From: an uncultured bacterium
GTDB taxonomy: Bacteria; Edwardsbacteria; AC1; EtOH8
Assembly: GCA_937863685.1 (NCBI GenBank)
Contig: CALMGM010000008.1
Span: 124,001 to 188,000 of the forward strand
Direction of reading: 5' to 3'
Length of the DNA stretch: 64,000 nt
Below are positions 24,225-53,438 of the stretch, one piece after another. The notes below the pieces were generated by a model. It made no database searches and was not told the DNA's origin. It was given only the letters and a program-made list of their open reading frames with translations. The number at the start of each line of letters is the position of its first letter. Position 1 is the first letter of the stretch. Both the position numbers and the translations under genes were made by a program.

Positions 24225-27200
24225 TTATCGGAGGATACCCATCTTGCCGGTCTTTTCAAGCGCCTTACTACCCTGATAAACAACGGCTTTATAGAAGTAC
24301 ACTCCGTTGGCCACACCATTTCCATTTTCATCACACAGGTCCCATTCAAAAGTGTGCACTCCGGTGGCTATCCCCCCCCTGAATGTTTTTACCAGCCTTC
24401 CGGCAACAGTGTATATTTTAAGTTCATATCTGTCGGCAACATCACCTACGTAGAAATAAAATGTTGTGATATCCCCGTCAACCGGGTTGGGATAGTTCGC
24501 GATTTCTTTTAACGCAAATTCAACTTTTACATTATTGAATATTTTTATTAAAGACTTATTCCCCAAATTGTCGGAAGCGCCAACCTCCAAACTATGAGTA
24601 CCATTGGTCAATATTGGTGCATAAACAAAAGAAACGCTGAAGGCATTGTCTGGTTTTAAAGGAAGACTGTACTTGGATTTGTCTACAAATTGATTGTTCA
24701 GCTTGACCCAGATCGAATCTAAATTTATACCGTCCCGGTCCTCTAGTAAAATCGAATACTGCGGGTTGGGGATCATTATAACTTGCCCCCAGCCTATGGC
24801 CTGTTGGTCAATCTTGGCGGTTATTTTCGGGCCGGTGGTATCCCTGGCAAACATTGCGGCAAATGTTCCGGGCTTTGAAGAAAACCCGGAGATGTAATCA
24901 TTGTCGGTCTGCGAGGGGATCAACTGCCACATTCCGGTAATATCCTCATATCTGAAGATTTTAAGATTGTTCAAATCTGTAGTACTGTCAATATTCTCCA
25001 ACTTCAGCGATATCCATAACTCCCGGTTATTATCAAATCCCCTGGTGGAATCGGTCAATCCGACAAAATAGGCCTGCCCCAAGCTGTCAAGGGGAACCAA
25101 GCCTGACTGGGTTATGCTGTTAATATCATACAGCTTCCTGCCGATGATGGCTACCGCGCTGTCATCAAGGCATGAATCCGGGAAAACGGCCCTGATTTTT
25201 GAGTAATAATCAAGAGTATCCTGATTGGTGCCCTTCATATCTAATTGATAATAATAGAAGTCTTGGGAAGGCACCCAATATACCACCGAATTGTCGTTGG
25301 TGGTATCCTCTTGGGGATACGGCGAGACAACCGACCGGAGGGGATCTATCCGGTAATACAACTGGGTGAATTCTCCTTCAATCGACCACGGCAGGCTTAA
25401 CTTCTTTTCCTTGCCGGCGAAAACGGTGTCCATTGTGCCGGAGCCCAGTATGGCATCATCGCTTGAACGGTAGAACCATACCGGGACCGAATGGGCATCG
25501 CAATCTCCCAAGTTCTTAATTGAGGCGCTTATGTCCAGAACCCTTTTGCCGCCAAGTGAGACAGCGCCCTGGGCGCTGCTGGCCGGGGCCAGGTCCGGTC
25601 TTCTTGGTATTTTTATCCGTTGCCAGAGGCTGGACGTTAAACTATCATTGATATAGATCTTAAATATCAGATAATAGTCATCCTCGGGATGATAATTCCC
25701 TGCCAAACCGTTTAAGTATACCTTATCGCTCAGAATGAAGGTATCTCCCGAGGCATTCATCAGGGAATGATTGAATGCTCCGGCGGTATCATAATAACCG
25801 CCGCCCCATTTCCATCGGCACCACACCGAATCAATGCCCGAAAGGCTCTGAACGATTCCGGTGATTTGTATGCTGTCGATATCGGTGGGGGCGGAAGGAA
25901 TTACCTTGATCCCCGATACGGCCGGCCGGTTTATGCCCAAATACTCCACTGCCACCCAATCGGAGTTATCGTCTTTCAAATATATTTTCAAGTAAGCCAG
26001 CCCGGAAAGGGCCGAATCGGGAATGGTAATATAAGTTTGGGCCTGCCCCGCCGAGGTGGAGAAGGCATTCTGTGAAACAATTCTCCGCCCCGAGTCATAT
26101 AACGAAATCACCGCCAGGCCGGCACCAAAAAGTCCGGTTATTTTTATCTGGGTGGAATCGCCTGGCAAAACCGCCGTCGGGGATATTTCAACCTTCAAGC
26201 CGGTATCCGGAAGTGCCAGTCGGACCGCCGGATCGCCCAGCAGATTATAGCTTACCAGCATATCCAGAGTCAGCCCGGATGGCGGCAATCCTCCAGCCAG
26301 GTCGTATTTGGAAGACAGGGCTATGTCGCCTAAATTTCGGAATCCTTTCTTATCAAAAGCATCTATAAAAGTATTCTCCATGACACAACCGACAATGCTG
26401 TCCCCGTAGGATGCTCCGCTGCTGGCGTAAAGCCCTATGGCCCCTCCTGGATTAAAAATGAAAGATTCGCTGAGAGAGACATATAACGGGCTCTCGAAAG
26501 CGCCCGAATTACAGGTAAAAGACCCTATCAGGGGCCATCTCCCCCAGTTATTCAGCCGGGCAACATCGTAATACCAGAAAAAACTGCCGTGAGACCATAA
26601 TTGCGCTCCGCCGTGTCCGTAAAACACCGCTACGGCCGCCCCCTGATTAAGGCGGTTTATCAAGTCCTCTTTGTTCTGGTAGGTAGCACCGTGATACACC
26701 TTGGCTATATCGTATAAAGGGGAGACCGCCGCCGCCAGGCTATCGCTTGGTCTGTAAAAATTATCCCACGGCTCCAGCGGCCAGCCGGCAATAAACAGTA
26801 TATCCTTGTGCCACCTGTCCAGGAACAGCCTCTGTTCATATACCTGTCTTTTGTTGTCCCAAATGCTAAATTCTTCATTGGAGTTTACTGGCAGCCTTCC
26901 CACGGATATGTCGGGCAGAAAATCGTCGCCATTGACCCTCACATAATAGTCATCATCAGCTACCCCGCCGTACCAATCCGTCCTGGTGAGGTGGACCGGG
27001 ATCTGGTCTTTCTTGCTGTTCCCTATGACATTCCGGGGATCGTAACTGCCATCACCCATCAATAAGACATATTCCGGCTGAATTGTCCAATTATCAAAAG
27101 CGTACTTAAGATAATCCCTAATTGCCTTGTCCGAGGTTATTCCATAATCAAACTCATCGAAGATATCCGATGTTAAGGAGACAATCGCAGTGGGGTATTT

Positions 27201-29006
27201 TGTCCGCCTGGCCTGGACCATCTTCTCTGCCGATTCTATCAATTCATCCGATGCAATAATTATATAATTTGTGCCGTTAAAACCCGGATCACGCAGATTG
27301 GATGTTCTATTGGGCACTATATCACCCGGAGAAAGTCTCTTTTTATCATCGCGTCCAATAACCACATATTTTTCATCGCCGTATATCCTGTCCTGAAAGG
27401 ACAGATTGTAATCCAAACCGCTGGTCCCGGGGGATATTGCCGAACCGACGATCTTGCTTTTGCCCAATTTATATACCTCGGCCGTGTAAGCCGGCAGTCC
27501 GGTTATTGTGTACTGCACCAGGGAGTCGTTGATTTTGGCATCGGAGATGAAGGCCAGGTTACCGGAAGGGACATTGAAACCCCTTTTATAGTCAATTTCA
27601 AACCAGTTGATCAGGATTTTGTTGCTGGTGTTGGAAGTGGTGTCATGTTTGACCGTCAAACTATTGACGCCGTTGATGACCGCTGTCGCCGGAATTTTGA
27701 TGTTGATTTTATTTTCGGTTTGATCGAACCATTTAAGATCGGCTATCGATTGCCCGTTCAATAGCAGGCGAACATGGTGCCAGTCGTCTTCCGTGACCCC
27801 GTGAAGGCTGCCTTTTATGACAAAACTGTCTCCCGAAGCAATGAACGGGGAGGGGATTTCGATGGCAAGGGTCACGCTTCCCGGATAATCCACTCTTTTC
27901 CAGAACCAGCGGTCGTTTTGGTCGCTGTTCCAGGCATCCAGACGAGGGAACAGACTGTCTTTTTCAAAATGAATGGTTTCCGAAAAATAACTCACCGGAG
28001 TTATCCCCGATAAAACCGGAGTACCGTCCTCTTCAGCCATCCGGGCGCCGGGGGAGCCGGTCAATGACATGTAATAGACGTTTTTTTTGGAGAACTGATG
28101 ATAATAAGTTGAATCTCCAATGTTTGCCTGGCCATAAAATTCAAAATTATCGTCGGGATCGAATACCCCGTCTGCTTGGCCTTTAAAATACAGCGCAATT
28201 TCCCGGCCTTTATTTATTATTTTCAATGCCTTGGGATCAATCAGATCGGGATTTATTCCAGCGGCAAGGAGATCGTTATATCCTATTTTATAGATCCCGT
28301 CGTTTTTTATAAATATCTTGTACGGCAGGGTATCACAAGATATTTGCCCGGCCTTTGACAAAGTGCGATGATTCCATTTTTCAGCTTGCTTGGGATTTGC
28401 CACGGTTTTAAGCAAGACTTCATCCAGATGGCTTTTGGCCGGTGGGATCCCCTGGACATAGGTCCCGGTTGCTTTATATTCTATGGTGATCCTCATCCTC
28501 CGGCTGACGATCACTCGGGCATTGGCGGGATCAAAAATAACCGGGAATAAAGTCAAGGTCGATATTTTGGTGTTTCTGGCCCAGCCGGATCTGCTTAAAA
28601 CAGCCGCCCGATCTGGATACTGAGCACTTCCGAAATATATCGTATTATCAATTATAAAGTCGTTCCCTGTTTCGGCTGGAGCCGGGCTGGGAAGGGGGAC
28701 AATGGCAATATATTCCTTCTCCTTCAGTTCTATCTGGGTGATAACAGCCTGAGATTGGTAGGGGACAGCGAACATTATGCTGCGCTGTGGCAAAGAAGGT
28801 TTCCCGCAGTCAATGGTATTGGCGCAGCCATCTATCGCTATCTGGTGATAAGTTTTATTTCCATAGATATTCGGGGCGTATCTTACATTTCCGGCCCTGA
28901 ATTCAATGATCATGCCATACTCATCGGATTTTATTATATCAACATTGGCCACGGCTGCGGCTGCAAAAGAAATGATGACGATTATGCTCGCTATATACTT
29001 TTTCAT
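24225..29006 (-). CDS. porU: PorU-like C25 protease with T9SS sorting domain
   Basis: 1593 residues, Sec signal 1-20. A long N-terminal region (about 21-575) is followed by a peptidase C25 (gingipain) domain at about 580-930 with the catalytic pair H798 (FYGHGG) and C832 (SFTCNSGAF). Several Ig-like regions follow, then a type A sorting domain at the end (NYPNPVDGD, LKIYTVAGRLV, VANGVYFYK). In P. gingivalis PorU is the T9SS sortase, itself a C25 protein with a C-terminal sorting domain, beside porV. That context, the size of the N-region and the adjacent PorV-like gene make a sortase role likely, but a secreted C25 protease is an alternative. 4 nt after the preceding cargo gene. Confidence 0.75.
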   Translation of the reverse strand: MKKYIASIIVIISFAAAAVANVDIIKSDEYGMIIEFRAGNVRYAPNIYGNKTYHQIAIDGCANTIDCGKPSLPQRSIMFAVPYQSQAVITQIELKEKEYIAIVPLPSPAPAETGNDFIIDNTIYFGSAQYPDRAAVLSRSGWARNTKISTLTLFPVIFDPANARVIVSRRMRITIEYKATGTYVQGIPPAKSHLDEVLLKTVANPKQAEKWNHRTLSKAGQISCDTLPYKIFIKNDGIYKIGYNDLLAAGINPDLIDPKALKIINKGREIALYFKGQADGVFDPDDNFEFYGQANIGDSTYYHQFSKKNVYYMSLTGSPGARMAEEDGTPVLSGITPVSYFSETIHFEKDSLFPRLDAWNSDQNDRWFWKRVDYPGSVTLAIEIPSPFIASGDSFVIKGSLHGVTEDDWHHVRLLLNGQSIADLKWFDQTENKINIKIPATAVINGVNSLTVKHDTTSNTSNKILINWFEIDYKRGFNVPSGNLAFISDAKINDSLVQYTITGLPAYTAEVYKLGKSKIVGSAISPGTSGLDYNLSFQDRIYGDEKYVVIGRDDKKRLSPGDIVPNRTSNLRDPGFNGTNYIIIASDELIESAEKMVQARRTKYPTAIVSLTSDIFDEFDYGITSDKAIRDYLKYAFDNWTIQPEYVLLMGDGSYDPRNVIGNSKKDQIPVHLTRTDWYGGVADDDYYVRVNGDDFLPDISVGRLPVNSNEEFSIWDNKRQVYEQRLFLDRWHKDILFIAGWPLEPWDNFYRPSDSLAAAVSPLYDIAKVYHGATYQNKEDLINRLNQGAAVAVFYGHGGAQLWSHGSFFWYYDVARLNNWGRWPLIGSFTCNSGAFESPLYVSLSESFIFNPGGAIGLYASSGASYGDSIVGCVMENTFIDAFDKKGFRNLGDIALSSKYDLAGGLPPSGLTLDMLVSYNLLGDPAVRLALPDTGLKVEISPTAVLPGDSTQIKITGLFGAGLAVISLYDSGRRIVSQNAFSTSAGQAQTYITIPDSALSGLAYLKIYLKDDNSDWVAVEYLGINRPAVSGIKVIPSAPTDIDSIQITGIVQSLSGIDSVWCRWKWGGGYYDTAGAFNHSLMNASGDTFILSDKVYLNGLAGNYHPEDDYYLIFKIYINDSLTSSLWQRIKIPRRPDLAPASSAQGAVSLGGKRVLDISASIKNLGDCDAHSVPVWFYRSSDDAILGSGTMDTVFAGKEKKLSLPWSIEGEFTQLYYRIDPLRSVVSPYPQEDTTNDNSVVYWVPSQDFYYYQLDMKGTNQDTLDYYSKIRAVFPDSCLDDSAVAIIGRKLYDINSITQSGLVPLDSLGQAYFVGLTDSTRGFDNNRELWISLKLENIDSTTDLNNLKIFRYEDITGMWQLIPSQTDNDYISGFSSKPGTFAAMFARDTTGPKITAKIDQQAIGWGQVIMIPNPQYSILLEDRDGINLDSIWVKLNNQFVDKSKYSLPLKPDNAFSVSFVYAPILTNGTHSLEVGASDNLGNKSLIKIFNNVKVEFALKEIANYPNPVDGDITTFYFYVGDVADRYELKIYTVAGRLVKTFRGGIATGVHTFEWDLCDENGNGVANGVYFYKAVVYQGSKALEKTGKMGILR

Positions 29007-38200: not shown

Positions 38201-40253
38201 TCCAGTTTACCCCGATCTTCAACCCGGTGGCCCCGGCTGGAACGGTCAATAAATATTCATAGACTTCTCCGGTCAAAACACCGGTCCGGTTGTCGTTGAC
38301 GATCAGCTTGACCCCGTTCCCGGAAAGGTAGAGGGCGGTGTCCAGATTGACCCTCCCCCAGCCGTACATGGAATCCGGATAAAAAGAAGCGCAATAGCTG
38401 GTGGTGCTGTCGCCGCTGATGGCCAGCATGGCTTTCATCAAAGCGCCGGACGGTGTAAATCCGTTGGCGGCAATCTTGGTGCCGGTGGGATACCAGCCCT
38501 CGGTGAAATACTGGCGGATAAGGGCCGTGGCTCCGGCGGTGATTGGGCAGGCCATCGATGTCCCCTGCATGCTTAAAGTTCCGACATCAACTCCCCCGTT
38601 GGCCGAAAGAATGGCCGTCCCGGGAGCCGTTACCGTCGGATTCAGACGCCCGTCGGCGTGCCTTCCCCAGCTGGAGAAGGTGGCCCTGGTGCTGGCCCCG
38701 CCGGGATTGGTGCCGGCCGAAAGTGCGCCCACCGCAATACCGTTCTTGTTGACGGCCGGGGACCCGGCCTTGGAGCCCGGCTGGGTCTTGGTGCCGTCGT
38801 TGTCATCGGAGAACAGGAATAAAAAGTCCTTGTGGCTCCACATGAACTGGTCGGTCTCCATGCCGCTGAGATCGTAGACCCCGTTGGCCGATGAGTCCCC
38901 CCAGGAGTTGGATGATATGTACGCCCGCTGTCCGCCCAGGTACTTGGCGGCGCTGTCCCAGCCCCAGGATCCCACCCGGTTGATATCCCAGGTGCCGTAG
39001 ACCGAGCCGGAGTCGCCTCCGCCGTCCACAAAAATAAGCTTTGCATTCTTGGCCATGCCGTCCATGGCGTAGGTGCCCAGGGCGTCATCATTGCCCACAA
39101 TGCTGCCGGAGGTATGGGTGCCATGATAGGAATTGGCCGATTCGTCTCCGTAGCGGGACATGGTCCCGGGATTCCATCCCAGATCGATCTCGTCTTCTCT
39201 TCCGCCCGGCTGCTGGCCTACAACTTTGGAGTGGTTGACATCCCAGTACCATTCGCTGATGCCGTCCACATAGGCGTGGCGGTGGGCATTATCCCTGAAG
39301 AAATACTGCGATTCGCGGCAGCCGGTGTCCAGGTCCAGCACGATCTGGCCTTCGCCCATGATCCCGGCGGCCCATATCGGCCGGTAATTGGCAACTGTGC
39401 CGTAGGCCTGGACCACCACCTGGCTGTTGGCGTTCTGGATACGGAATACCGGCATTGGTTCTATCCAGAAAACACCCTTGATATTTGCCAGGGTATTCAA
39501 TTTGTCCTCGCTGATGTCCACGAATATCTTTTTGTTGAACTTGCCGGGTTCCCATTCAAAAACAGATTTATGAAATATCTTATGTCCTACCACCGATTCG
39601 ATGTCTTTTATCGAGGCAGTGACGTCCTCGGGGCTGAAAATATTGATGGTCGCCCTGATCTTGCCGCCCTTGGCCTGGGCAGAGATCCGGGGGGAGACCT
39701 TATAGGCCGGCTGGAACAGCCCGGTCCATTTGACCTCGCTTTTGGTGGCGGTGATGTTGTTTCTGATGATCTCGTTCATCCGGACCACAAAGGCATAGTT
39801 GGGCAGGTAGAACATCACCTCGGCCCCGGCCTTTTCCAAACCCTTGCGCCAGCTGTCCTGCACCGGGCCGTTGAACTGGACGATGTAATAGGTCAACTCG
39901 TCGCCTTTGGGAGCGCTATATTTCAAATCGGAAGGCAGGGTGGGCTCGCCGGCATCAGTATTGATCTTATAGCCATTGGAAAATTCAATTATATTGGCGT
40001 TGGCATATGGCGCCGGGTTTACCGCCCTTTTGTTCTGGCCGATGAATTTGGGGATATCGGAAATAACCGATTGGTCGTTGCTGACCGCTTTGGCTGCCGG
40101 AACGGCAGCGGTGGATGTCTTGGTCACCTGCGGAACACTTTGGTTGGCATCCAGTTTATACGCCGAAACTTCGTTGAGACCGGCTAAGGATAACGCCACC
40201 ATAGTTACCGCTAGAACCAATCCGGTTAACCATACTCCGGTTTTCCTAGCCAT
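35232..40253 (-). CDS. Secreted S8 subtilase with T9SS sorting domain (1673 aa)
   Basis: Signal peptide 1-31. Residues about 60-270 are a propeptide-like region (YYIVQFNGPVQDSWRKGL, LPNYAFVVRMN). The S8 catalytic domain (about 290-650) has D309 in LDLDTG, H377 in YHGTHTSG, a probable oxyanion N485 and S566 in QGTSMACP. A C-terminal subtilase-type domain follows, then Fn3-like domains (including TSENANSKIYYGTT), a GATase-like domain (about 1080-1270), further Ig-like regions, and an Fn3-like plus type A sorting domain (RPNPFNPLT, LKIYNITGQLVRTL, LSNGIYFYN). The same propeptide-like region occurs in the other S8 protein. AAGGAG precedes the ATG and a motif-bearing AT-rich leader lies upstream. 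Confidence 0.9.
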   Translation of the reverse strand: MARKTGVWLTGLVLAVTMVALSLAGLNEVSAYKLDANQSVPQVTKTSTAAVPAAKAVSNDQSVISDIPKFIGQNKRAVNPAPYANANIIEFSNGYKINTDAGEPTLPSDLKYSAPKGDELTYYIVQFNGPVQDSWRKGLEKAGAEVMFYLPNYAFVVRMNEIIRNNITATKSEVKWTGLFQPAYKVSPRISAQAKGGKIRATINIFSPEDVTASIKDIESVVGHKIFHKSVFEWEPGKFNKKIFVDISEDKLNTLANIKGVFWIEPMPVFRIQNANSQVVVQAYGTVANYRPIWAAGIMGEGQIVLDLDTGCRESQYFFRDNAHRHAYVDGISEWYWDVNHSKVVGQQPGGREDEIDLGWNPGTMSRYGDESANSYHGTHTSGSIVGNDDALGTYAMDGMAKNAKLIFVDGGGDSGSVYGTWDINRVGSWGWDSAAKYLGGQRAYISSNSWGDSSANGVYDLSGMETDQFMWSHKDFLFLFSDDNDGTKTQPGSKAGSPAVNKNGIAVGALSAGTNPGGASTRATFSSWGRHADGRLNPTVTAPGTAILSANGGVDVGTLSMQGTSMACPITAGATALIRQYFTEGWYPTGTKIAANGFTPSGALMKAMLAISGDSTTSYCASFYPDSMYGWGRVNLDTALYLSGNGVKLIVNDNRTGVLTGEVYEYLLTVPAGATGLKIGVNWTDYPGNPAAARTLVNDLDLDAYNPSAVRYRGNRFNAAVPRQTNTAATDNDSIDVLEGIRVTAPAAGTWRITVTGRNVAVGPQPFALVITYKTAVATYPAMGKVFLNKPVYAIPVITGSNDTLKVEIIDPNNILASNNVVIRAKLVETQPETLACTKVGDGLFRGSLALLNGNPVHGDGRLSVDARDTIWVRYDDTNPAGSDSTYAVVDGNTFTISNVYAYDPTPPNASAKYIHWTTSENANSKIYYGTTTALGSTLTLDTPYVFDHNVKLTSLTGSTLYYFDIESKDYRGNTVRDDNAGRHYTFSTGSASGSDVLVVVFNTNLSSGDAFEFAHPDFLTSALNAGGWSYDWLTTEQGAFSTAKLKDYKAVYFQNGQENYPALESWYRDTIAAYHNLGARFSVTGHDIGWDSWANLDGRPAATRAADTLFCRNYLHFTYKGDVTNELDFSPLYGITNDSISGGYTSGLAYQPFRNGACGDSIWGVAGSGVVTPVWDGPNAMDTCGNKWISNSALGTPGNGVWGGQKTKVVYNAFEITQFDTTNKTSASRIDVLNKMFIWLIGHDHPDVLISTPVAGNTYNTSPISIAWTSAAWGGATIDTTFIEYSDNAGTSWNLITKGTAIASPYAWNVASTNGDKYQVRVRVKDKGVYPVMSGSDTVGTFAINRVGGDNFGPVVLPGSIKFARSPVGNQTNNVLQVQAIASDSSTGLSNIAAVKCSAYVSGSARVAMLSATDGSFNQLIESVNGDLSTDGWPVGAYTIYLRAQDASPSKTPANWGPLSTATLNVINGISTVKAVTLSYFNCLASAQGINLKWRTESEIDCREWIIKRGNSVVGPFAEINKIIVSDGNSNEPKEYSYLDASVDPSQLYFYQLIEVSGDGNQVVYGPIEVRSLVQALIFGLSAARPNPFNPLTRHAEINFQIPSRSQVSLKIYNITGQLVRTLVNEVMPAGFYTAKWNGKNDRGQTLSNGIYFYNLEAGGLKATKKITLIK

Positions 40254-47850: not shown

Positions 47851-50460
47851 TTACCTGATGATGGTCACCTTCTGGGTGGCCGAATAATCCCCGGCGGTCA
47901 TCTTGTACAGGTATACCCCGTTGGCTGCGTTCCGCCCGCGAGCATCCTTGCCGTCCCACGGGATGCTGTAATATCCCGCCGGCTGGATCCCGTCCACCAG
48001 CGTCCGCACCTCCTGTCCCAGAACATTGTATATCTTGATCGAGGTCCGCCCGCTATTCCTCAAGGCGTACCTGATGGTGACATCAGACGCCGCCGGATTG
48101 GGATAGGCCTTCCCAAGCTGGCAGTTCAGCGGCAGGTCCTTCCCCCCGAACTCCACCAGCATCGGCCCGTAATAGGTCCTGATTTCGTTGACATCCACCT
48201 CGGCCAGACGGTAGTAATATATCCCCGTCTCCAGGTTGGATATATCGCTGTAACTATACTGATGCGGCTCGTTGGTCGTCAGGTGCCCCTCCACCGTACC
48301 GATCAGCTTAAAATCGCCCTCCTCGCTGATGGACCGCTCTATCTCCCAGCGGGAGCAGTCCTTCTCGCTCTCGGTCCGCCAGCGGACCTCAACTGTGTTG
48401 TTCGTAAAAAGAGCCGTTAATGAGCTTAACTCGACAGCAGAAGGATAGACCAAAACCTTTCTCAGTTGACTCCAGTCCCCCCAGCTTCTTTTACTGTTAT
48501 ATCCGCGCACCCGGTAATAATAGGTTTCGCCCACCGTCCTTTGACCGACATCGTAACTGGTGACAGGGATGGAATTCGACAGGGAGGCAGCCGTTGAGTA
48601 GGACGCCACCGGCTTGATATCGTCAATGTAGATTCCGTCGGTGGCGGTCAGACCGTCCCCTACCAGGCGTATCCTGAAAAATACCGATTTATTGAAATAC
48701 TTCGCCGAATCGATGGCAAAAGCCCTTTTGGTCCAGCTGAGAACGTTGCCGTATAATTTGCCCAGCAGGTCCCACTGCCGGCCGTCGGGAGAGATCTCCA
48801 CCCAGATCCGGTCGAAAGCGGTCATGGCCTGGTAGCTGTAAAAACTGAAGGAATCGCTGGCCGAGCTGACCGGATAGGGATTGGTGGTGGTGACGCTGGC
48901 AATGTTGTACTGGTTGCTGACCGCGCTGTAGTAGCTTCGGCTGCCGGAATACATCCTGACCGTCGAGGGAGAAAAACCGTTCAGGGCTATATTGGGATTG
49001 GCCGCTGGTCCCACTGTATCGGTGGAGGCGTTAAGACCGATCAGTTCCTGAACTTCGTAGGCGGTGGGACTGGAGGCCGGGTTTAACAGATTCCAGGTAA
49101 TCCATACATCATTGGTGGCCTTGCCCTTCAGGGGGAAATAGACCGGATTGATGGCCGGTGGCAGCACCGGCGGCGGCGAGGTGGTGCTGACCAGGCTGTC
49201 AGTGCGCAGAGCCAGGTACATGAATCCTTTGAGGGTCTGGGGACAGACCGAATCTATATGGCTGGGCGGGATGTAGAAAGCGGTGTCCGCCTCCACGCAG
49301 TAAGGAAAGATCACCCGGCCCAGCTGGGTCAGGCCGTAGCCGTACATCCAGCCGTCGGAATCCCCGGTGGTCTCGTACAGGGCCGAGCCCTGCTGGGGCG
49401 TGTAGCCCAGGGGGCTGCGGTATCTTTTGATGCGGGAGGCCATCTGCCGCCCGAAGTACTGCAACTGGGTACTGTCCGGCGCTCGTTTGATCAGGGAATC
49501 AACATAGCCCAGGGGCCAAAGTACCAGTTCGCCGTATGTGTGATAGGAGATCGACAGCACGATGTTATGATCTTTGACCAGCTTCATCATGGCCTGCTGC
49601 TCCGGCTCTCCGCTGGGCGCCACGCCGTAGAATACATCGTTGGACGAATCCGGGCTGGTATAGCTGTTGATCGTGCTGCCCCAGGCCCCCAGGATATCCC
49701 CATCCATGGAGCCGTCGTAACCCCGGTTGAGGTCGGAACCGAAAACGGTGGGGCTGTTCACCCGACGGTTCTTACGCCACATCAGGCCTGCCCCGTAGGT
49801 GCCCCCGTTGTCATAAACAAACCCGTCGGGGTTGACCAGCGGCGCGATGTATATCTCCCGAGTTTTTATGAGATTGGACAGCGAATCGGTCCCGGCGGGG
49901 TTGTAGTTATCGGTCAGATAATTGGCGATATAAAGGCAGATCTCCGGGGTCATCCACTCGCGGGCGTGATGGTCCCCCATTATCAGAATGCCGTGGCGCG
50001 AATTATCGTCGACCGTGGGATTGTCCGAGATCTTCAGGCACCAGACCTTGCCCCCTTGGGCCGCCACCGCCAAGGTATCCAGTTTGATTATTGACGGATG
50101 GTCGACGGCTATCTGCTTGAGTTCGGTCCGGATCCCGTCATATGTATGGTAGGCCGCCTTGCCGCTGTAGGAAGCGACATCCCGGGGGGAGGTCATCAGC
50201 ACCTTGTAGGCCAGCCCTGCCCCGGAAATCCGCGATAGCTGGTCGGGATCGATCACTATATCAGCGTATTCCCCGGGCCGGTAGGAGGCCACGTCTAGGC
50301 CGTAGCCGATATGGGCCAGCCGTTCGGCGTTCTCCCTGACGGAAATATCAACCCGGATAAGCATCTTGTTGGCACTCTCCTGGCAAAGTATAACTGAAGA
50401 TGATACTACCAAAGAAGCCAGAAGGAAAAACAGAACTGCCGTGATTTTATGCTTATGCAT
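47851..50460 (-). CDS. Secreted M14 zinc carboxypeptidase with T9SS sorting domain
   Basis: 869 residues from the ATG at 50460 (a longer reading adds 29 residues with no signal peptide in front). Signal peptide about 1-27. M14 domain about 100-430: zinc ligands H165 and E168 (DHHAREW), H307 (SYHTYGEL), N245/R246 (SDLNRG) and the catalytic Glu E390 (YCVEAD). Downstream are a jelly-roll/Fn3-like region, then the WRTESEKDC Fn3-like module and a type A sorting domain (AYPNPAAS, IKIYNVLGQEVRTL, AANGVYLYK). The last 547 bp are nearly identical in DNA to the end of the following S8 gene. A peptide-trimming exo-protease at the surface is likely. Confidence 0.92.
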   Translation of the reverse strand: MHKHKITAVLFFLLASLVVSSSVILCQESANKMLIRVDISVRENAERLAHIGYGLDVASYRPGEYADIVIDPDQLSRISGAGLAYKVLMTSPRDVASYSGKAAYHTYDGIRTELKQIAVDHPSIIKLDTLAVAAQGGKVWCLKISDNPTVDDNSRHGILIMGDHHAREWMTPEICLYIANYLTDNYNPAGTDSLSNLIKTREIYIAPLVNPDGFVYDNGGTYGAGLMWRKNRRVNSPTVFGSDLNRGYDGSMDGDILGAWGSTINSYTSPDSSNDVFYGVAPSGEPEQQAMMKLVKDHNIVLSISYHTYGELVLWPLGYVDSLIKRAPDSTQLQYFGRQMASRIKRYRSPLGYTPQQGSALYETTGDSDGWMYGYGLTQLGRVIFPYCVEADTAFYIPPSHIDSVCPQTLKGFMYLALRTDSLVSTTSPPPVLPPAINPVYFPLKGKATNDVWITWNLLNPASSPTAYEVQELIGLNASTDTVGPAANPNIALNGFSPSTVRMYSGSRSYYSAVSNQYNIASVTTTNPYPVSSASDSFSFYSYQAMTAFDRIWVEISPDGRQWDLLGKLYGNVLSWTKRAFAIDSAKYFNKSVFFRIRLVGDGLTATDGIYIDDIKPVASYSTAASLSNSIPVTSYDVGQRTVGETYYYRVRGYNSKRSWGDWSQLRKVLVYPSAVELSSLTALFTNNTVEVRWRTESEKDCSRWEIERSISEEGDFKLIGTVEGHLTTNEPHQYSYSDISNLETGIYYYRLAEVDVNEIRTYYGPMLVEFGGKDLPLNCQLGKAYPNPAASDVTIRYALRNSGRTSIKIYNVLGQEVRTLVDGIQPAGYYSIPWDGKDARGRNAANGVYLYKMTAGDYSATQKVTIIR
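47856..48402. repeat. Near-identical sorting-domain cassette, copy 1
   Basis: 547 bp covering the Fn3-like module and T9SS sorting domain of the M14 gene. Compared base by base with 50561-51107 (offset 2705) I count only three differences, at 48316, 48337 and 48355, all silent. Identity stops abruptly at 48402/48403. One further difference at 47855 changes the penultimate-stop residue R to K. Confidence 0.95.
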
Positions 50461-50508
50461 ATATCCCTTTAGAATATGTTTGGCTGGATTATAGCATATA
50501 TCAGCATA

Positions 50509-50545
50509 GAACAACAGCCCGATTTTTAAAATCGGGCTGTTGTTC
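50509..50545 (-). terminator. Terminator of the 960-residue S8 gene
   Basis: GAACAACAGCCCGATTTT (50509-50526) and AAAATCGGGCTGTTGTTC (50528-50545) form an 18-bp perfect stem around a single T, 10 nt past the stop codon. It also sits just upstream of the M14 promoter, whose TATAAT (50493-50488) is seen on the minus strand. Confidence 0.88.
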
Positions 50546-50555
50546 ACAAATTATT

Positions 50556-53438
50556 TTACTTGATGATGGTCACCTTCTGGGTGGCCGAATAATCCCCGGC
50601 GGTCATCTTGTACAGGTATACCCCGTTGGCTGCGTTCCGCCCGCGAGCATCCTTGCCGTCCCACGGGATGCTGTAATATCCCGCCGGCTGGATCCCGTCC
50701 ACCAGCGTCCGCACCTCCTGTCCCAGAACATTGTATATCTTGATCGAGGTCCGCCCGCTATTCCTCAAGGCGTACCTGATGGTGACATCAGACGCCGCCG
50801 GATTGGGATAGGCCTTCCCAAGCTGGCAGTTCAGCGGCAGGTCCTTCCCCCCGAACTCCACCAGCATCGGCCCGTAATAGGTCCTGATTTCGTTGACATC
50901 CACCTCGGCCAGACGGTAGTAATATATCCCCGTCTCCAGGTTGGATATATCGCTGTAACTATACTGATGCGGCTCGTTGGTCGTCAGGTGCCCCTCCACC
51001 GTACCGATCAGCTTAAAATCTCCCTCCTCGCTGATGGACCGTTCTATCTCCCAGCGGGAACAGTCCTTCTCGCTCTCGGTCCGCCAGCGGACCTCAACTG
51101 TGTTGTTGGCCGCCGTTGCGCTGAAGGAGGTCATCTCCACCGCCTGGGGAGGAATGGCAAAGCCGGAGGAATTGGCGATGTCGCCGCTGACGGTCAGCAC
51201 GTAGGGCTGCGGCCCGTTGTTGATGGCCCGGGCAGTGACAGTGACGGTATAGGTCACGCTGGCCTTGGTGGCCGAGGCCGGCAGCCAGACCACCTCCTCG
51301 CAGTTCACCGAATCGGGGCTGCCGCCGGTTATGGAAAAGCCGTTGCTGGCCGGCTGGCCGAAAACATTGCCCAGATAGGTATTGCCGCCTCCGGTGACGG
51401 TCAGATCAAGGTCGTTGACGGTGATATCTGAGGCTCCCGGCGTTCCGGGATAATCGACATAGACCAAGACGAACTTGAGAGGCTGACTTCCCGAGGTCCC
51501 GGTGGTGACGGTGAAGGTCTTGCTCTGTCCGGAGGAAGAAAAGCCTGCCTTGGCATCCTCCAGGGCGGTCCGCTTGGCGTCGCCGGGAAAATACAGGGCG
51601 TCGTCCAGCACCACCCCGCCCCAGCCCTGGCCCTGCGAGGGAACATTCTGGGTCCCGGTCTGTCCTATGGCGTCGATGCTATAGGCCCCGTTGAAGTTCC
51701 TGGTGGCCAGCATCATCAGTGATTTAATCAAAGCCCCGGATGGATTGGCAATGGCGTTGCCCGCCACCTTGGTGCCGGTGGGATACCACCCCTCGGTGAG
51801 GTACTGCCGGACCAGAGCCCCCATTCCGGCCATGGTGGGCGTGGCCATCGAGGTTCCGCCCATGGTTATGATGCCGGAATTATTGGTGGTCAGGCTGCCG
51901 TCGGAATCCACCGACCAGATGTACCATCCGCCGCATCCCAGCAGGGTGGGACGCATCAGCCCCTCGTCGGTCGGCCCGTGGGAGGAGAATTCGGCCACGT
52001 CCAACAGTTCGTTGCGGGTATTGGTGCCGTTTACCTGCCAGGTGGTGACGGCCGAGCCGAATCCCGATTCGCTGGCCCCTACGCAGACGATGTTCTTGCC
52101 GGTGGCCGGGCTGTTCACCCGGTCATTGGAGGTGTTATCGTTGCCGGCCGAGCGGAACATAAGTAGATCCTTATGGTTCCAGGCCGCCTGATCTATCTGC
52201 TGGGCGTTGATTGTATAGGCGGAAGATCCCCCGGCGCTCTGCCCCCAGGAAGAAGAGGTGATCCTGGCACCGGCATTGTACTCCCATATGTATATATGGC
52301 TGTAATCAGCCGGAAGTTTTAAGGCATCGCTGGCCGCTCCGATATCAGTGAATGCTATCCGGCACTTGGGAGCCATGCCCATGGCCGGGGGAAGGGAACT
52401 CTGGGTGGTCAGCCAGCCCAAGCTGTCGGCGCCGATGGACCCGCTGGTATGGCTGCCATGACCGCTTGAGGTCAGATCAAAAGAATCAGCAATGATATTA
52501 TAGGCCACAATTTTCCGATGAGCGTTGGTTCCGAAGACCAAGGTATCGCGCCCGGTGGCTGAAACCGTGTCCTTGTCGTAGACGGGCTTCAAGCCTGCTC
52601 CATCCCGGAAATAAATGTTATCCCAATCCATGCCGGTATCATCATCGCCCACTATCATGTTCTGGCCGTATAATCCTTTTTTATAGATGGGCATGACAGC
52701 CGAGTCGCTGGCGGTGGAGATGGTCAGGGCCGATTTCCATGAATCGGCAGCATAGACCATTTTCAGGGTATCCAGGCTCTGGTTGATCCAGCGGCTCCAG
52801 GCATTGTGTAGCACCGGCTGGTAATAACGTTCCACCCAGAACACCTCGGGATAGTTGGCGATCTCCTTGGCGATCTCTATTGACTGATCCGATGGTATGG
52901 AGATGCGGATATAATTTTCACCATGCCGGTCATAACCAATGTCTTTTTTTGACAGCAACTTCTCCAAAACGGCTTTAGCATCAGATTCTTCAAAGGTTGC
53001 TATCTGAAGCATTATCTTTCCCGGTTCGTCAGGGGCATAAAACCCCGGAGCATTCAACAGATCCGGGTTTATCCGGAAAGCCGGCTGGTAATATCCTACG
53101 AATTGGACAAACGGCAGTTTCTCGATTTTTCCCTTAACATCGCCGTTCATTTTTACCACCTGTCCGTAATTAGGTATGTAATCGTTGTGTATCTTTCCCC
53201 CGGCCCTTCTGACCTCGCTTCTCCAGGCATCATTCACCGGCCCAATGAACTGAACGATATACCAGTCGGCCTCGGTGGATTTTGGGGCTCTCTCCAGGCC
53301 CAATTTGGCATAGGAGGGCATGCCATTGGCGGTTGAAAAATGCCCGATCTTGAATTTCAGAACCGTCGGATCGGAAGCAGTAGCCCATGAAGTCAGCAAC
53401 AACAGCGTTATTAAAACAAGAAAAAACTTTTTATGCAT
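50556..53438 (-). CDS. Secreted S8 subtilase with T9SS sorting domain (960 aa)
   Basis: Signal peptide 1-21. A propeptide-like region (about 30-210; DWYIVQFIGPVNDAWR, IPNYGQVVKMN) is shared with the 1673-residue S8 protein. Catalytic domain about 255-600: D267 (DDDTG), H327 (SGHGSHTSG), oxyanion N433 (SAGND) and S530 (GGTSMATP). A PPC-like/Fn3 region and the WRTESEKDC Fn3-like module precede the type A sorting domain, ending in K. The last 547 bp are nearly identical to the end of the M14 gene. The leader carries the protease promoter element at 53484-53509. Confidence 0.92.
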   Translation of the reverse strand: MHKKFFLVLITLLLLTSWATASDPTVLKFKIGHFSTANGMPSYAKLGLERAPKSTEADWYIVQFIGPVNDAWRSEVRRAGGKIHNDYIPNYGQVVKMNGDVKGKIEKLPFVQFVGYYQPAFRINPDLLNAPGFYAPDEPGKIMLQIATFEESDAKAVLEKLLSKKDIGYDRHGENYIRISIPSDQSIEIAKEIANYPEVFWVERYYQPVLHNAWSRWINQSLDTLKMVYAADSWKSALTISTASDSAVMPIYKKGLYGQNMIVGDDDTGMDWDNIYFRDGAGLKPVYDKDTVSATGRDTLVFGTNAHRKIVAYNIIADSFDLTSSGHGSHTSGSIGADSLGWLTTQSSLPPAMGMAPKCRIAFTDIGAASDALKLPADYSHIYIWEYNAGARITSSSWGQSAGGSSAYTINAQQIDQAAWNHKDLLMFRSAGNDNTSNDRVNSPATGKNIVCVGASESGFGSAVTTWQVNGTNTRNELLDVAEFSSHGPTDEGLMRPTLLGCGGWYIWSVDSDGSLTTNNSGIITMGGTSMATPTMAGMGALVRQYLTEGWYPTGTKVAGNAIANPSGALIKSLMMLATRNFNGAYSIDAIGQTGTQNVPSQGQGWGGVVLDDALYFPGDAKRTALEDAKAGFSSSGQSKTFTVTTGTSGSQPLKFVLVYVDYPGTPGASDITVNDLDLTVTGGGNTYLGNVFGQPASNGFSITGGSPDSVNCEEVVWLPASATKASVTYTVTVTARAINNGPQPYVLTVSGDIANSSGFAIPPQAVEMTSFSATAANNTVEVRWRTESEKDCSRWEIERSISEEGDFKLIGTVEGHLTTNEPHQYSYSDISNLETGIYYYRLAEVDVNEIRTYYGPMLVEFGGKDLPLNCQLGKAYPNPAASDVTIRYALRNSGRTSIKIYNVLGQEVRTLVDGIQPAGYYSIPWDGKDARGRNAANGVYLYKMTAGDYSATQKVTIIK
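50561..51107. repeat. Near-identical sorting-domain cassette, copy 2
   Basis: Second copy of the 547-bp cassette, in the S8 gene; see 47856-48402. The differences (51021, 51042 and 51060) are silent, so the two proteins share identical residues through the cassette. Confidence 0.95.

Follow-up and report, generated by a model that had tools for sequence, protein, structure and literature searches.

A probable recent ectopic gene conversion carrying a T9SS sorting tail between neighbouring protease genes in Candidatus Edwardsbacteria

Descriptions of gene conversion usually concern entire duplicate genes or antigen repertoires. Bacterial conversion between homologous stretches is said to start anywhere in the repeat and to be limited by its ends (PMC5485169). 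Work on Flavobacterium johnsoniae indicates that swapped CTDs decide the destination of the cargo (PMC12618676). Searches of the open-licence PMC literature listed no paper that describes gene conversion of T9SS sorting domains. At the locus considered here, the converted sequence is the shared C-terminal targeting module of neighbouring genes, and the enzyme domains of such converting neighbours may be unrelated.

The locus lies in a window of 64,000 nucleotides (the whole stretch analysed) on contig C8 of assembly G000 (2.72 Mb, 14 contigs), for which the nearest named relative found is Candidatus Edwardsbacteria DeMMO3_1. On the minus strand, an S8 subtilase gene (50556-53438; Peptidase_S8, 7.2e-27; Por_Secre_tail, 3.4e-11) is followed after a 95 bp gap by an M14 zinc carboxypeptidase gene (47851-50460; Peptidase_M14, 1.2e-51; Por_Secre_tail, 3.9e-11), the start of which was chosen by us as the ATG of MHKHK. 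As the original prediction held, the enzymatic domains are unrelated, Peptidase_M14 and Peptidase_S8 being different families. Each protein nevertheless ends in about 190 residues that make up two beta-sandwich domains, an Fn3-like domain and a T9SS type A sorting domain (TIGR04183), the latter encoded on the minus strand at 47860-48108 for M14 (G000:C8:171860-172108) and at 50565-50813 for S8 (G000:C8:174565-174813).

Both C-termini score above the curated cut-offs of the TIGR04183 and PF18962 profiles, with 47.9 and 48.0 bits (cut-off 23) and 43.5 and 43.7 bits (cut-off 27). A predicted model of the tail (pLDDT 86, pTM 0.53) has PorU among its fold matches (E 2.6e-5, with a TM of only 0.36 on the two-domain model), and profile comparison of the tail returns PorU (E 0.003) and a solved sorting domain (E 0.011). 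On this modelling, the sorting domain is predicted to have a beta-sandwich fold like that of solved sorting domains. The label Fn3, originally given to the preceding domain, stands in part: the fold is supported, with FNIII tandems among the top fold matches for the tail model at a low TM of 0.3-0.4, but no Pfam fn3 match was obtained at E up to 1, and the domain is therefore called Fn3-like only.

Alongside these tails, G000 encodes core components of the T9SS, as SprA (in frame, 365 bits against a cut-off of 200) and PorU (616 bits against 420) both exceed their cut-offs, which is also the case in 5/5 genomes tested, G000 included. In all, 94 TIGR04183 tails are listed for G000. The window also holds a second PorU-like protein of 1596 aa (26187-28322; G000:C8:150187-152322, minus strand), which at 239 bits falls below the PorU cut-off of 420; the true PorU is on contig C2, and a pairing of PorU with a PorU-like protein occurs in all five genomes tested. 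A scan for promoters and terminators gave a signal at or below the shuffled expectation. Seen by eye and absent from the output of that scan, a nearly perfect inverted repeat with 17-base arms (50510-50544) lies in the S8-M14 intergenic gap, immediately beyond the end of the copied tract. There is also a 114-nt direct repeat of 75% identity (38462-38575 and 51755-51868), probably within the catalytic parts of two subtilase genes.

The two protease genes had been predicted to share the last 547 bp before the stop with only three silent differences. Comparison of the M14 copy (47856-48402) with the S8 copy (50561-51107; offset 2705), both on the minus strand and spanning the Fn3-like sandwich and the sorting domain, gives exactly this 547-bp block. 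Its three differences, at 48316/51021, 48337/51042 and 48355/51060, are all silent and leave the protein unchanged. However, the block does not run to the stop, from which it is separated by one more difference (47855/50560) that alters the last sense codon (Arg, AGG, in M14; Lys, AAG, in S8). Extended to the stop, it measures 552 bp with 4 differences, and identity continues through the stop codon. The longest exact run between the tails is 460 bp (47856-48315), in a window that contains no N. Both ends of identity are sharp, as predicted for the one at 48402/51107, with a drop to about 50-80% at 48403/51108 and a complete loss just past the stop, and homology persists for ~14 residues beyond 48403/51108 (AVELSSLTALFT / AVEMTSFSATAA). 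All three silent differences fall in the stretch 48316-48355, at most 87 bp from the upstream tract end (chance about 0.004), a clustering that would be given either by a patchy end of the tract or by a second tract of greater age. Among the 4278 pairs formed by 93 sorting domains of G000, the M14/S8 pair has the highest DNA identity (99.6%). The suggestion that more copies be sought was taken up by a search of the 2.72-Mb, 14-contig assembly with the 547-bp query. Apart from the M14 and S8 copies themselves, it returned just two weak matches, 156 and 51 bp long, and hence no third copy of the tract in the genome.

Comparison with related genomes, originally proposed as a way to date the event and find its source, points to a recent event with the S8 tail as the source. 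A contig scan gave three loci, one of them a true relative and two of them tail matches only. M14 orthologues were found in three genomes of the same genus (G001, G002, and G003), where they adjoin S8, and in two of another genus (G006 and G008). Within G000, the M14 and S8 tails differ by a dS of 0.024 (3 synonymous differences over 126.8 sites), and the corresponding values are 0.127 in G003, 0.76 in G001, and 0.84 in G002; in G008 the two tails are old paralogues (dS 1.55). Orthologous tails differ between species by a dS of 0.43-1.12, and the gene bodies of G000 differ from those of its three congeners by 0.80-1.00 for M14 and 0.85-1.38 for S8.

In the tail tree, from which the S8 tail of G006 was left out as it is cut by a contig end, the M14 and S8 tails of G000 are sisters with a support of 100/100, and those of G003 with 89/95, which falls short of a starred branch. 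A 100/100 clade unites six tails, namely M14 and S8 of G000 and G003 and S8 of G001 and G002, with the M14 tails of G001 and G002 outside it. Forcing the M14 tails of the genus into one clade costs 267 log-likelihood units and is rejected (p-AU 4e-82). Since the M14 tails of G000 and G003 lie inside the clade of S8 tails, the direction of transfer is from S8 as donor to M14 as recipient. The core of the sorting domain also shows this direction, being FGQ-type in unconverted M14 tails and AAS/SVS-type in S8 tails. The exchange is confined to the homologous stretch, with the flanks unexchanged. Of the two routes left open by the original prediction, gene conversion is upheld by the dS of 0.024, the 100/100 sister tails and the AU test, but cassette duplication is not. 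Ultimately, we read the M14/S8 repeat of this Candidatus Edwardsbacteria genome as a recent ectopic gene conversion that carried the S8 tail across 2.7 kb onto the neighbouring M14 gene, with a probability of roughly 0.88.

The M14/S8 pair of G003 was converted independently of that in G000, since the M14 body of G003 groups with that of G001 (100/100) and the core of the G001 M14 tail is unconverted. In G001 and G002, a run test for patchy similarity between M14 and S8 gives p 5e-5 over all polymorphic sites and p 0.38 and 0.28 over silent codons, and the similarity in G002 is barely above between-genome levels. No conversion is therefore claimed for these two genomes. The last 80 bp of the G001 tails, at 98% identity within the genome vs a mean of 83-87% between genomes, are only suggestive of conversion.

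Several other explanations of the repeat have to be weighed. The assembler may have placed the sequence of one tail in both genes, given that both copies rest on one MAG-like assembly and that an exact repeat of 460 bp exceeds short-read length. However, the copies differ at 4/552 positions, including the Lys/Arg change, and the gene order is kept in G002 with near-identical spacing of the tails (2706 bp vs 2705). Moreover, the pair is also homogenised in the separate assembly of G003, and the tails of a second locus in G000 diverge by 3-8%, unlike the product of a collapse, so that an artefact is given a very low probability. That selection alone holds both tails identical would be in keeping with proteins that are identical over the tract, but silent sites are the same at 55/58 silent-polymorphic codons, and the dS of 0.024 compares with a pS of 0.33-0.58 between orthologous tails of different species, which thus do not all carry an identical module. 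Protein-level constraint was rejected on these silent sites, and its probability is practically nil.

The unrelated enzyme domains and sharp ends of the tract could also result if a sorting module had been newly fused to a tail-less M14 protein. Such was the thrust of the original prediction, in which the same module is put on a different enzyme and thereby makes a new protein T9SS cargo. Neither part of this idea holds, because in each of the five relatives in which the M14 protein was found (G001, G002, G003, G006, and G008), including those of another genus, it ends in its own sorting tail at the same position. No cargo was created; one address tag overwrote another. Homology extends across the upstream end, and the tract stops inside the homologous domain and not at a domain border, which fits a conversion tract and not the insertion of a cassette. 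Cassette acquisition, rejected because the M14 of relatives is already tailed, has an extremely slim chance of being correct. A low probability is likewise assigned to homologous recombination with DNA from another Edwardsbacteria strain whose tails were already alike. In its favour, the M14 bodies of G001 and G003 differ by a dS of 0.233 vs 0.605 for TyrRS, and the S8 body of G001 falls outside the other S8 bodies of the genus; from these sequences, the M14/S8 cluster may have been exchanged between species. The branching within the genus was not settled by the TyrRS species tree. Nevertheless, incoming DNA would still require that the donor strain had itself undergone conversion, and a long branch (0.18) separates the tails of G000 from every other tail sampled.

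Gene conversion between the two genes would have started from tandem, same-strand M14 and S8 genes that both carried a homologous Fn3-like sandwich and a T9SS type A sorting tail. After a break within or close to the M14 tail, the S8 tail at a distance of 2.7 kb probably served as the repair template, and 547 bp or more would have been copied, as far as the stop codon, where homology ends. This would be a non-reciprocal recombination, presumably RecA-dependent and passing through a repair intermediate. Neighbours on the same strand would supply a nearby template, and the homologous tail would confine the tract to the export module. Replacement of the FGQ-type core of M14 by the S8 type may give both proteases one address, and may equally be neutral. 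As CTD swaps direct cargo in F. johnsoniae, the replacement of the core may have changed the address of M14.

Similar homogenisation is found at other neighbouring tail-bearing genes. Using 93/94 listed tails of G000 (C10:104416-104562 was left out), at least 70% DNA identity is reached by 11/26 pairs of sorting domains within 5 kb, 0/155 at 5-50 kb, and 5/4097 farther apart, and at least 90% by 4/26 pairs within 5 kb and by none of the farther pairs (Mann-Whitney p 1.3e-7 for proximity, the pairs not being independent). For G002, with 79/81 listed tails (two fragments were left out), the counts at 70% are 12/26, 1/120, and 9/2935 (p 2.5e-7), and two far pairs exceed 90%, both with similar bodies. 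These raw proximity counts are swollen by whole-gene tandem duplicates with alike bodies, which account for part of the near pairs. A stricter test therefore took only pairs with a tail pS under 0.25 and bodies unalignable or far more diverged (pS 0.44-0.82). This was passed by 4/26 near pairs in G000 (two loci), by 4/26 in G002 (three loci), and by 0/150 random far pairs in each genome. In these eight pairs at five loci, the silent sites of the tail are homogenised beyond those of the body. The loci are the M14/S8 pair, for which the body pS of 0.438 is too low since the compared stretch includes part of the converted sandwich, and a trio at C5:736414-743951 in G000, and C8:20-23k, C6:92-94k, and C4:364-371k in G002.

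The G000 trio consists of three tandem tail-bearing genes encoding 1039, 970, and 499 aa. Its tails are 92-97% identical and group apart from their orthologues (83/95, 90/91), including the one in G001, in a tree in which one G002 tail was entered twice (same sequence, two loci) and which holds no tail from the G003:C68 stretch. The smallest of the three proteins (499 aa) aligns with the N-terminal region of the 1039-aa body (53% over 370 aa) and carries a nearly identical tail. Weaker, older cases with unrelated bodies are seen in G000 at C5:403-407k (FG-GAP and LVIVD proteins, tails 78% identical) and C10:57-60k (73%). Two near pairs run the other way, their bodies being better conserved than their tails (C5:384467/387349 in G000 and C4:422721/425922 in G002). 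In the distant genome G012, where 62/114 listed tails were used, near pairs were chosen by eye and one pair with a contig-edge fragment was left out, only 1/28 near pairs reaches 70%, and this is a whole-gene duplicate; on this one distant genome, homogenisation is therefore not a general property of T9SS cargo. Two sorting domains of G002 on different contigs (C6:37130-37327 and C4:842915-843109) are 88% identical with no body similarity, possibly through long-range conversion or translocation. Additionally, G000:C13:124592-125825 holds an array of tandem repeats, each about 138 bp long, upstream of a sorting tail.

In general, then, where cargo genes of this genus lie within 5 kb of each other, their sorting tails have repeatedly been homogenised while the enzyme domains diverged, and an ordinary DNA-repair process seems to keep the export tags of neighbours alike. 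The M14/S8 case is most probably a real, recent gene conversion and one of several in the genus. A bolder idea, which we consider unlikely, is that tandem T9SS cargo genes overwrite each other's tails under selection for co-delivery with one shared tag, and not as a mere by-product of repair. If so, neighbouring enzymes would share one export and anchoring tag as their catalytic parts evolve freely, and a locus could be re-addressed in one step. In any case, phylogenies built on sorting domains, or jointly on tail-bearing proteins, will mislead, and the converted loci offer a natural series of CTD swaps with which to ask what information, other than "export me", is written in the sequence of a T9SS tail.

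The mechanism is thus ordinary and known. The target is unusual and fairly systematic, and it is the repeated restriction to the export tails of neighbouring cargo genes that is worth following. As in the tuf genes of Salmonella, within the part of that account used here, copying is non-reciprocal and leaves near-identical stretches in one genome, with tracts bounded by homology; there, however, whole duplicate genes are homogenised, whereas here homogenisation is limited to a C-terminal export module shared by neighbours whose enzyme domains are unrelated (PMC5485169). The RgpA, Kgp, and HagA proteins of Porphyromonas gingivalis are likewise different T9SS cargo proteins with near-identical C-terminal modules (more than 90% amino-acid identity), but those modules are repetitive adhesin domains and that study stresses exchange between strains, whereas the present case concerns the sorting tail itself in tandem neighbours (PMC5266723). 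Finally, the engineered CTD swaps that re-target cargo in F. johnsoniae illustrate an outcome that a natural conversion could have, although those are laboratory chimeras with mainly type B tails, and the available text of that work makes no mention of gene conversion (0 occurrences) (PMC12618676).
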